Source: Chryseobacterium sp. SNU WT5
GTDB taxonomy: Bacteria; Bacteroidota; Bacteroidia; Flavobacteriales; Weeksellaceae
Reading direction: 5' to 3'
Assembly: GCF_007362475.1 (NCBI RefSeq)
Contig: NZ_CP041687.1
Span: forward strand, 2,480,001-2,544,000
DNA: 64,000 nucleotides
The position numbers were made by a program, and so were the translations under genes. Numbering within the stretch: the stretch's first letter is position 1; each line of letters opens with the position of its first letter. Below are positions 60,446 through 63,206 of this stretch, in pieces. The notes under the pieces are model-generated. The model saw only the letters and a program-made list of their open reading frames with translations, was not told where the DNA came from and searched no databases.

Positions 60446-60453
60446 TATCTTTG
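60446..60453 (+). promoter_or_regulatory. -7 promoter element (TATCTTTG) of the TPP-riboswitch operon
   Basis: An exact TAnnTTTG match placed so that transcription would start at about 60457-60460, just where the riboswitch P1 stem begins. Confidence 0.55.
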
Positions 60454-60456
60454 CGA

Positions 60457-60530
60457 CACATCGGGGTGCCTTCTGGCTGAGATAATACCCGTATAACTTG
60501 CTCTGGTTAGGACCAGCGAAAGGAATGTAA
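60457..60530 (+). promoter_or_regulatory. TPP (thiamine pyrophosphate) riboswitch
   Basis: The conserved core of the THI element is present in order: ATCGGGGTGCC, then CTGGCTGAGATAATACCC (the CUGAGA pyrimidine-sensing segment), then CTTGCTCTGGTTAGGACCAGC (the diphosphate-sensing helix region) and GCGAAAGGAA. The ends ACAT...ATGT can pair as P1. Downstream, GATCT...AGATC (60531-60549) forms a hairpin 20-40 bases before the ATG, with no T-run, so control may act on translation. TPP binding would turn the operon off. Confidence 0.92.
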
Positions 60531-60569
60531 GATCTTTTACAAAGAGATCCCGGTGGTAAAATATTATTT

Positions 60570-61298
60570 ATGGAAAAAGAAATAAATAAAACCGCCCAAT
60601 CCCAATTAATTTTTGATGGAATTCGCTCTTGGCAAGGACGTAAGGAATGGTTTTTCAACCGCCAATATACCGATCGGTATGAAGATTATTACGAAGGAAA
60701 ATACAAACGTGCAGAAATTGAGCAAAAAGCTGTTATGGCTGCCTTAATCAAAGCTGATGTTCGAAATCAAACCCTTTTAGAATTTGGCTGTGGCACGACC
60801 CGATTCACCCGATGGTGGCACCAAATCGGTTTGGAAGCAACTGGCGGAGATATTTCTCCTTTCATGCTTTCGCAGGCTCTTTACCGCTGGGGTGGCGATC
60901 TTACCATGGCGGATGTTCATCATATGCCTTTCAAAGATCAAAGTTTTGATCTGCTGGTTTTCATGAATACTTTTGAATACTATCAAAATCCTGAGCAAGT
61001 AATTGCAGAAGCATCGCGCGTTTGTAAAAATGGCTTTGCAATGGGAATGATGAATAAGTTAACGCCCAAATTCATTCGCAGAAGAGTGCAGCAATCTTTT
61101 GGAGCGAATGAATACTATCGAACAGCCACTTTTTACACTCCAAAAACTTTAATAGACTTGCTCGAAAAAAATCTTCAACATCGTGAATTTGAAATTACGT
61201 GGATGTGTACAGGTTTACCCAAATGGTTTCCTGTAAAAGAATGGAAAATGCCTTACGGTGATTTTTTTGGCGTTTACGTAAAGTTTCTTGATGTATGA
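60570..61298 (+). CDS. SAM-dependent methyltransferase in the TPP-riboswitch operon
   Basis: A 242-residue class I methyltransferase. The N-terminal region (WQGRKEWFFNRQYTDRYEDYYEGKYKRAEIEQK) is not a standard domain. Motif I is TLLEFGCGTTRFTRWW (about residues 68-83), motif II ATGGDISPFMLSQA, motif III TMADVHHMPFKDQSFDLLVFMNTFEY. The C-terminal third is a cap with Trp/Tyr-rich segments. No family with a defined substrate is recognised. Because a TPP riboswitch controls the operon, its substrate is probably a thiamine precursor, a degradation product, or a related metabolite. The stop overlaps the next ATG by four bases. Confidence 0.85.
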   Translation: MEKEINKTAQSQLIFDGIRSWQGRKEWFFNRQYTDRYEDYYEGKYKRAEIEQKAVMAALIKADVRNQTLLEFGCGTTRFTRWWHQIGLEATGGDISPFMLSQALYRWGGDLTMADVHHMPFKDQSFDLLVFMNTFEYYQNPEQVIAEASRVCKNGFAMGMMNKLTPKFIRRRVQQSFGANEYYRTATFYTPKTLIDLLEKNLQHREFEITWMCTGLPKWFPVKEWKMPYGDFFGVYVKFLDV

Positions 61299-62338
61299 AA
61301 ATAAATAATGATCTTATCAATAACACTTTATTAAATCAATTGGGATATCGGAATAAAAATGTTTTAAAAGGACCTTCTTTCGGTGTTGACAGTAGTTTAA
61401 TAAAAATTTCGGACGAGTTAGAAATGGTCTCTGCAAGTGATCCATTATCGTATTTACCAAAATTGGGTCCCGAACTGTCTGCCTATTTATCTGTTCATTT
61501 AATTGCCAATGATATTGTGACTTCTGGTGTTTCACCACAATATTTTCAGATGGTTTTAAATTTACCCGAAGACATGACGGAAAAAGTATTCCAAGAATAT
61601 TGGACCGCAATTCATTACGAGTGTGAAAAAAATAAAATCGCAATTACGGGCGGACATACCGGTTGGGTAATGGGACACAATTCTACCGTGAGTGGAGGAG
61701 GAACAATGTTCGCAATCGCGCCAAAAGGAAGTTTGTTGACGTCGGATCAAGCAGAAGTAGGAGACGTGATGTTGATGACTAAACACGCTGGAATTGCTTC
61801 TACGGCGATCTTAGGTTTGTATTTTCCTGAAACTTCAAAGAAACTTTTTAAAGGAGAAGAACCTTTCGATTTTCTTCAATTATTTCACCAAATAAGTGTG
61901 ATGCGTGAAGGTTTACTCGCTGCGGAATTTAATAAGAAAAATCCAGGATCTGTAAAAGCGATGCATGATATAACGGAAGGTGGAGTACTAAACGCATTTG
62001 CCGAATTTTCGATTGCAGCCGGGATTCGGTGTGAATTGGATTTACGAAAAGTTCCAGTTTTAAAAGAGCAATGGAAGTTGTTGGATCAATTCAATCTTTC
62101 GCCTTTTGAAATTATTGGAGCAGGAAGTATGCTGATGAGCGTCAATCCCAGTAAAATTGAAGAATTACTGAATTTTTTAAATTTAAATGGAATTCAAGCA
62201 ACGGTGATAGGATCTTTTCATAATAAAGAGCGTTCAACTTACAAAGACCTCAATGGAAATGTGATGGATTTAAAACCGATAGAATTAGATCCTTATTGGA
62301 AAGCATTTGGGAATGCCTTAGAAAAGGAATGGTTATGA
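61295..62338 (+). CDS. PurM/AIR-synthase-fold protein (ThiL/HypE-related)
   Basis: A 347-residue protein of the AIR-synthase superfamily, whose members (PurM, ThiL, HypE, SelD) bind ATP across a dimer interface. The N-terminal half has GPSFGVDSSLIKISDELEMVSASDPLSYLP and HLIANDIVTSGVSPQYFQMVLNLP (the Asn-Asp-(I/L)-x-x-x-G pattern), then KIAITGGHTGWVMGHNSTVSGG. The C-terminal half has MHDITEGGVLNAFAEFSIAAG. It lacks the ThiL Gly-Asp-Asp-Ala-Ala motif (here G-V-D-S-S), so it is not orthologous to ThiL by sight. In this operon a phosphorylation or condensation step in thiamine synthesis is likely. Confidence 0.82.
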   Translation: MKINNDLINNTLLNQLGYRNKNVLKGPSFGVDSSLIKISDELEMVSASDPLSYLPKLGPELSAYLSVHLIANDIVTSGVSPQYFQMVLNLPEDMTEKVFQEYWTAIHYECEKNKIAITGGHTGWVMGHNSTVSGGGTMFAIAPKGSLLTSDQAEVGDVMLMTKHAGIASTAILGLYFPETSKKLFKGEEPFDFLQLFHQISVMREGLLAAEFNKKNPGSVKAMHDITEGGVLNAFAEFSIAAGIRCELDLRKVPVLKEQWKLLDQFNLSPFEIIGAGSMLMSVNPSKIEELLNFLNLNGIQATVIGSFHNKERSTYKDLNGNVMDLKPIELDPYWKAFGNALEKEWL

Positions 62339-62934
62339 AAAAAGAATTGTATCTAATATTGGATTGCAGTATTGATTTTGAATTACTGTTCTCTCAAGCG
62401 AAACAAGCCTTAGAAGGTGGTGCGGACAAAATTCAGCTGTTTAATGCTCATCGTTTTACAAATTTAGAAATTGCACAACTGCTTAAACTTTGTCACCATT
62501 ATCACGCATTATTGCTCATTAATCAAGATTTTGACTTTGCAATTTCAAATAATTGTGATGGAGTGCATTTCGACGAATTACCAGACTCCTGGGATTCTGA
62601 TAAAGTTCCAACCTCTTTCTTAGTTGGTCTTACCGTTGGAAATGATGAAAACACCATTAAAAAAGCAATTGAGAATTCAGTTGATTATATTTCGTTTTGT
62701 AGTTTGTATCCCACGAAATCTGCGACAAATTGTGAAATAATCAATCACCAAAACATTATAAAAGCGTCGGAGAACTTTAGTATTCCGATTTATGTAGCTG
62801 GTGGAATAACCCCCGAACATTTAGATGAAATAAAAGATTGGCCAATAGCAGGAATCGCCATGATCACAGGAATTACTGAAGCTGAAAATATAACAGCTCG
62901 CGTTAAAGAAATTAAAAAAAGAATAAACCCATGA
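62335..62934 (+). CDS. ThiE/TenI-like thiamine phosphate synthase homologue
   Basis: A 199-residue TIM-barrel protein of the thiamine-phosphate synthase family, which joins hydroxymethylpyrimidine diphosphate and thiazole phosphate. Conserved segments are INQDFDFAISNNCDGVHFDELPDSW, GLTVGNDENTIKKAIENSVDYISFCSLYPTKSATN and IPIYVAGGITPEHL. The diphosphate motif near strand 2, normally Gln-x-Arg-x-Lys, reads IQLFNAHRFTN here, without the paired basic residues, so the substrate or chemistry may differ. The start is ATG 62335, overlapping the preceding stop by four bases. The upstream Met at 62296 is inside the PurM-like gene. Confidence 0.85.
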   Translation: MKKELYLILDCSIDFELLFSQAKQALEGGADKIQLFNAHRFTNLEIAQLLKLCHHYHALLLINQDFDFAISNNCDGVHFDELPDSWDSDKVPTSFLVGLTVGNDENTIKKAIENSVDYISFCSLYPTKSATNCEIINHQNIIKASENFSIPIYVAGGITPEHLDEIKDWPIAGIAMITGITEAENITARVKEIKKRINP

Positions 62935-63206
62935 CTCAAGAAAAATTAGATAAAATGTGCTGTCCATTTGATAAAAATGATTTGCATTTGGAAATTTACA
63001 GAGAAGATCAAACACAGGTTTTAGAGGGTTTATTTACCTGCGCTTCTTGTAAACGATATTTCCCCATCATCTCTGGAATACCGATTATGATTCCGGATGA
63101 ATATCGGGAACTTTCATTTGAACAAGGCTTTTTAGATCGATATCAACATCAAATGCCTAAACTACAATCCAACTTTCGAGTGGATGAAATAAAAGTTTTA
63201 GGATAA
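62931..63206 (+). CDS. Trm112-like small zinc protein
   Basis: A 91-residue protein. MCCPFDKNDLHLEIY and FTCASCKRYFPIISGIPIMIP match the Trm112/UPF0434 family (C-P-x-[CD]-K ... C-x2-C ... [YF]-P-I-x-x-G-I-P). Four cysteines (near residues 10, 11, 38 and 41) can bind zinc. Trm112 proteins act as activators of methyltransferases in eukaryotes and archaea. The operon's first gene is a methyltransferase, so it may be its partner. The ATG overlaps the ThiE-like stop by four bases. It ends the operon; the following 160 bases hold a hairpin and the ada promoter. Confidence 0.82.
   Translation: MTQEKLDKMCCPFDKNDLHLEIYREDQTQVLEGLFTCASCKRYFPIISGIPIMIPDEYRELSFEQGFLDRYQHQMPKLQSNFRVDEIKVLG

Follow-up and report, generated by a model that had tools for sequence, protein, structure and literature searches.

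A four-gene cassette behind a TPP riboswitch is a candidate vitamin B1 supply module in Bacteroidota

Results

A four-gene operon behind a TPP riboswitch

The window analysed here, a stretch of 64,000 nucleotides from Chryseobacterium sp. SNU WT5 (contig NZ_CP041687.1, positions 2,480,001 to 2,544,000), contains a four-gene operon behind a thiamine pyrophosphate (TPP) riboswitch. Our best reading is that this cassette provides thiamine phosphate or a vitamer from which it can be formed, and we assign a probability of about 0.55 to its acting on its own as a vitamin B1 supply module under TPP control. This reading is favoured because of the TPP control, the exclusion of the known pathway from host genomes, the transfer of the cassette as a unit, and the presence of folds that bind thiamine-type phosphates.

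The aptamer is located at positions 60452-60541 of the forward strand. In a cmscan search of the 64 kb, it matches the full RF00059 model (1-105) with 62.6 bits, above the gathering score of 54.3 (E 6.5e-10), and the covariance model thus confirms the TPP aptamer claimed in the initial annotation. The sequence TATCTTTG (60446-60453, forward strand) fits TAnnTTTG, which we take to be the Bacteroidetes -7 consensus, and is a possible -7 promoter element. The arrangement suggests that the operon is under TPP riboswitch control, in which TPP would switch it off.

All four genes lie on the forward strand. The first (60570-61298) encodes a class I S-adenosylmethionine (SAM) methyltransferase of 242 residues (MT; Methyltransf_11, 68.4 bits), and the second (61295-62338) encodes a 347-residue ATPase of the PurM/HypE/SelD/ThiL superfamily (AIRS; AIRS domain, 39 bits; AIRS_C, 59.5 bits). 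They are followed by a ThiE/TenI-fold protein of 199 residues with invariant cysteines at positions 122 and 133 (62335-62934; TMP-TENI, 101.6 bits) and a Trm112-like zinc-ribbon protein of 91 residues (62931-63206; Trm112p, 27.9 bits, cut-off 22). Each of the five Pfam domains scores above its cut-off. ATGA overlaps at 61295, 62335 and 62931 form all three gene junctions, as first described. The second overlap also decided the start of the ThiE-like frame, for which the ATG at 62335 was chosen and a TTG at 62296 was dropped. NCBIfam assigns none of the cassette proteins, and the best equivalog of each falls below its cut-off. None of the four genes is thiS, thiG, thiC, thiH or thiF. The original description of an unusual thiamine gene set is supported.

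The cassette and its riboswitch recur across Bacteroidota

MT was scanned against 84,980 species genomes, which encode 179 relatives, and the best 80 loci were studied. The four genes share one strand and a fixed order at 76 of the 80 loci; the other four are truncated, with the contig end 49-148 bases further on. All other cassette genes are present in every complete locus. The hosts comprise flavobacterial, sphingobacterial, cytophagal, saprospiral and other Bacteroidota. A TPP signature was observed within 450 bases upstream of the cassette at 77/80 loci, and Infernal places a match at the operon in 8/9 loci and in 6/6 loci from genomes drawn independently from the phylum. Any TPP match is found in 28 of 30 cassette genomes, and in all 28 the coordinates place one at the cassette. 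The genes are thus not generally found without the TPP element. Three loci (L019, L031 and L042, on two Neolewinella contigs and one Cyclobacteriaceae contig) show no TPP signature, and a permissive Rfam search of them is also empty; the two Neolewinella cassette genomes have no TPP match anywhere in the genome. The recurrence of the same genes, order and riboswitch across the phylum indicates that the operon is more than a product of chance.

A search of 100 relatives found the AIRS gene in only two, the window genome and another member of its family, G048, where all four cassette genes lie together with a TPP riboswitch that scores 66.8 bits. The cassette is present in 8/18 Arenibacter genomes, and the whole cassette is found twice in one genome in two instances (L052 and L070; L063 and L068). 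Among the neighbours of the cassette, no family recurs in more than nine loci and none is a thiamine gene, so the surroundings offer no hint of function. Haloarchaeal relatives of AIRS were rejected as a clue, being too distant (identity no higher than 30.6% in the 20 matches listed). On Haloarcula plasmids (L187, L191), a distant AIR synthase family gene is divergent from thiamine-binding and thiamine ABC transporter genes; in Haloferax and Halobacterium, the AIRS relatives are not beside thiamine-binding genes.

Most cassette hosts lack ThiC and ThiG

Thiamine genes were surveyed in 30 cassette genomes, in 20 relatives without the cassette and in 392 genomes sampled evenly from the phylum. 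Together, 43 distinct genomes hold the cassette; the counts for ThiE, ThiL, ThiD and thiamine pyrophosphokinase (TPK) cover 30 of these, and TenA, ThiM, Thi4, THI5 and YjbQ lay outside the survey. ThiC is present in 2/30 and 0/14 cassette genomes (together 2/43). Full-length ThiG (above 349 bits) is found in the same two genomes, G105 and G127 (2/43), and 41/43 are without both proteins; the raw ThiG tally of 37/56 above cut-off includes short matches of at most ~30 bits. In the phylum sample, the cassette (detected by MT) occurs in 14 genomes and ThiC in 130, and the two never occur together. The window genome has no ThiC, and its best ThiG match covers 96 of 247 positions and scores 24.6 bits.

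An additional TMP-TENI protein above cut-off was observed in 4/30 cassette genomes, and a full-length ThiD-type kinase (above 150 bits) in 2/30. TPK is present in 4/30 cassette genomes, compared with 20/20 relatives without the cassette. ThiL is present in 30/30 and 20/20, respectively; it occurs in all 50 genomes, even though only one of the 20 controls has ThiC and every control contains TPK.

Apparent replacement of ThiC and transfer between orders

Genus g21, which belongs to the window's family, shows a replacement pattern. In five of the six genomes sampled from it, ThiC and ThiG are present and the cassette is absent; in the sixth, G399, the situation is reversed. The MT of G399 shares 90.9% identity with the protein of Mangrovivirga, a member of another order, 89.2% with that of Rufibacter and only 62.9% with that of the window, from its own family. 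The MT and AIRS genes have a GC content of 43-44%, compared with 38.5% for the surrounding stretch. The cassette sits on a 1.84 Mb contig and has its own TPP riboswitch (67.1 bits). The simplest reading is that G399 acquired the cassette across orders as a self-sufficient unit.

The four proteins differ from their characterized relatives

The window MT is 59-70% identical to 17 cassette homologues and weakly matches Bud23-type chains. The Trm112-like family conserves CCP..D and C..C; its window member scores 63.4 bits against NF038101, below the cut-off of 77. The Trm112p domain and the Bud23-type match resemble the known pairs of Trm112 and methyltransferase partners, such as Bud23. Unlike those systems, the cassette operon includes thiamine-type genes. 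Their shared operon suggests that MT and the Trm112-like protein may form a physical complex.

The AIRS protein falls below the cut-off of every related equivalog: ThiL (57.1 bits, cut-off 184.15), SelD (56.9, cut-off 125), HypE (55.5, cut-off 251.6) and PurM (28.3, cut-off 236.35). A separate, true ThiL (315 bits) is encoded elsewhere in the window genome. In model comparison, the AIRS protein is closest to HypE, so the initial label of PurM-like is correct for the superfamily and is refined here. The C-terminal cysteine, which we take to be the HypE hallmark, is not retained: a cysteine is among the last six residues in 2/77 sequences and is the final residue in 0/77.

The ThiE-like protein retains the ThiE fold. 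It scores 96.9 bits against the ThiE equivalog TIGR00693 (cut-off 145.1) and lies far below the TenI cut-off (55.6 bits, cut-off 251). Both cysteines (122 and 133) are invariant across the 77 sequences of the family and distinguish it from ThiE and TenI. In contrast to ThiE, equivalents of Arg59, Lys61, Lys159 and Asp112 are each found in 0/77 sequences, and that of Asp93 in 2/77; we take these to be the pyrophosphate- and Mg2+-binding residues of ThiE (K159A structure, 3o16). The label ThiE-like therefore describes the fold and not the pyrophosphate site. ThiD-type kinases make hydroxymethylpyrimidine pyrophosphate (HMP-PP), and 28/30 cassette genomes are without a full-length one. The earlier proposal of an alternative thiamine synthesis or salvage branch survives as an alternative branch, and its ThiE-type final reaction is not supported, given the residue loss and the missing kinase. 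In that branch, as first proposed, methylation may serve to repair a precursor or to build one.

Thiamine uptake and further evidence against a supply role

Several observations weigh against a B1 supply module. Proteins of the PnuC/PnuT family are present in 37/43 cassette genomes, and most hosts look capable of import. At 15 of 20 other TPP sites viewed, the next downstream gene encodes a TonB-type receptor (called by sequence, with a Pfam check on L113 alone); in most hosts the cassette thus belongs to a regulon for thiamine uptake. In the window genome, TPK occurs together with a transporter of the PnuC type, and a TonB receptor is preceded by a TPP-type element that scores 45.3 bits and misses the cut-off. 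Import by most hosts, together with TPK in the window genome, suggests that the cassette may be dispensable. ThiL is equally present in the 20 controls and is therefore no special partner of the cassette. ThiC is present in only 1/20 relatives without the cassette, so its loss is unspecific in the window's family. The zero overlap of cassette and ThiC in the phylum sample gives a Fisher p of 0.0065 with kinship uncorrected, and G105 and G127 hold the cassette plus the full known pathway. The cassette occurs in only 1/36 genomes of the window's genus. One Arenibacter isolate, E3M18, is reported to require B1 (PMC12448291), and it comes from a genus in which part of the genomes hold the cassette. 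The supply function of the cassette is a prediction.

PnuC/PnuT proteins are missing from 6/43 cassette genomes, all in family f38; 6 of the 9 tested f38 cassette genomes are without ThiC, ThiG and any PnuC/PnuT protein. In 9 of 30 loci, PnuC has a NadR-like P-loop kinase nearby, identified from its sequence pattern alone, which could be a thiamine or nicotinamide riboside kinase. Given the missing TPK, the cassette was considered as the hosts' only source of thiamine monophosphate; this hypothesis is weakened because of the PnuC-type transporters in 37/43 and the NadR-like kinase near PnuC.

The remaining 5/20 TPP sites precede a ThiC operon (1), a PnuC-type gene (1), an NAD(P)HX-repair-like gene (1) or no nearby same-strand gene (2). 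The last two are strong TPP riboswitches (L116, 1166-1262, forward strand, 60.5 bits; L122, G106:C20:61975-62061, reverse strand, 72.2 bits), neither of which is directly followed by a same-strand gene of at least 90 residues. In Parapedobacter sp. SGR-10 (L119, 1144-1238, forward strand), a TPP riboswitch of 71.2 bits precedes a gene resembling, by eye, a bifunctional NAD(P)HX epimerase/dehydratase, which is followed by a dihydrolipoyl-dehydrogenase-like gene, also by eye. At L121 (3770-5424, forward strand) and L132 (5668-7455, reverse strand), the TPP site and TonB-type receptor are followed by a DUF6687 protein (Pfam in L132) and then by a protein of ~190-207 residues that begins with MSSHHV and belongs to no known family. 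These downstream genes are possible new thiamine uptake genes. A TPK-like identity, suspected for the proteins of 187-207 residues encoded behind two receptor genes, found no support in Pfam, NCBIfam or PDB sequences.

Discussion

In the proposed mechanism, each catalytic step, substrate and product is one that we infer. When TPP is scarce, the riboswitch would permit synthesis of the four co-translated proteins. MT and the Trm112-like protein would act as one joint methyltransferase, and AIRS would use ATP for the activation or phosphorylation of an intermediate that bears an amide or a phosphate. In the half-site common to ThiE and TenI, the ThiE-fold protein may bind a phosphorylated ligand of the thiazole type, with its invariant cysteine pair standing in for the HMP-PP chemistry of ThiE. 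The product would be thiamine phosphate or a vitamer one step away, which ThiL would convert to TPP.

In its strongest form, which we hold only tentatively and regard as rather unlikely, the supply module would constitute a third B1 route, alongside ThiC/ThiG and the THI5/THI4 type of eukaryotes. Thiamine phosphate would then be formed independently of ThiC and ThiG by a methyltransferase that depends on Trm112, an ATPase resembling HypE and a ThiE relative that contains cysteines, all encoded by a self-contained four-gene set that spread in Bacteroidota partly by horizontal transfer.

A complete alternative de novo route is the leading rival. Here the cassette would convert common metabolites into thiamine phosphate without ThiC or ThiG: SAM would donate the methyl group, the PurM-fold ATPase would drive ring closure and the two cysteines would handle sulfur. 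The absence of ThiC from all 14 cassette genomes of the phylum sample, the replacement in g21, the transfer as a unit and the six f38 genomes without ThiC, ThiG or PnuC/PnuT are consistent with such a route. However, four proteins seem few for building both rings, and most hosts keep TPP-controlled receptors. In addition, B1 auxotrophy is reported for marine Flavobacteriales that are missing the known cluster (PMC12448291) and that may or may not carry the cassette. We consider this route improbable.

Repair or detoxification, in which damaged thiamine or a thiamine antagonist is returned to usable vitamin, ranks next and is likewise doubtful. TPP control, auxotroph-type hosts, the presence of a methyltransferase and the retention of only the thiazole-phosphate half-site in the ThiE fold fit this role, although no conserved neighbour suggests it and we know of no thiamine damage product that calls for a SAM methyltransferase together with a PurM-fold ATPase. 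Synthesis of a thiamine antagonist or modified thiamine, as in bacimethrin clusters, would explain a TPP-controlled methyltransferase adjoining a ThiE relative. It is very unlikely, given that by Pfam the operon contains neither a thymidylate-synthase-like gene nor a thiaminase gene, that neighbours are not conserved and that a fixed, phylum-wide spread would be unusual for an antibiotic cluster. A precursor-salvage operon with an ordinary, divergent but working ThiE and three companion genes is scarcely credible when the ThiE pyrophosphate/Mg2+ residues are gone from nearly all sequences, 28/30 hosts have no full-length ThiD-type kinase and the three other genes are never missing from complete loci.

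The supply module shares its riboswitch with the known Bacteroidetes TPP regulon, and in its hosts TPP sites likewise precede genes for TonB-type receptors and PnuC-type transporters. It differs in the absence of thiS, thiG, thiC, thiH and thiF, which it usually replaces rather than accompanies. As described by Costliow and Degnan (2017; PMC5613172), that regulon includes thiSEGCHF-tenI, OMthi and pnuT-tnr3. No description of the four-gene set was found in the open-licence literature, among the matches listed. PMC2211319 mentions metagenomic TPP riboswitches that are followed by hypothetical genes without names, which is possibly an earlier sighting of the set.

TPP-controlled thiamine operons are already known, and proof of a route that bypasses ThiC and ThiG would establish a new pathway. 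B1 auxotrophy is usually called from missing thiC and thiG. If the cassette makes or rescues B1, many Bacteroidota would be misjudged in vitamin-exchange models. Four enzymes of unassigned role gain a clear regulatory pointer to a pathway, and a defined question is raised about the role of a ThiE fold with two cysteines.
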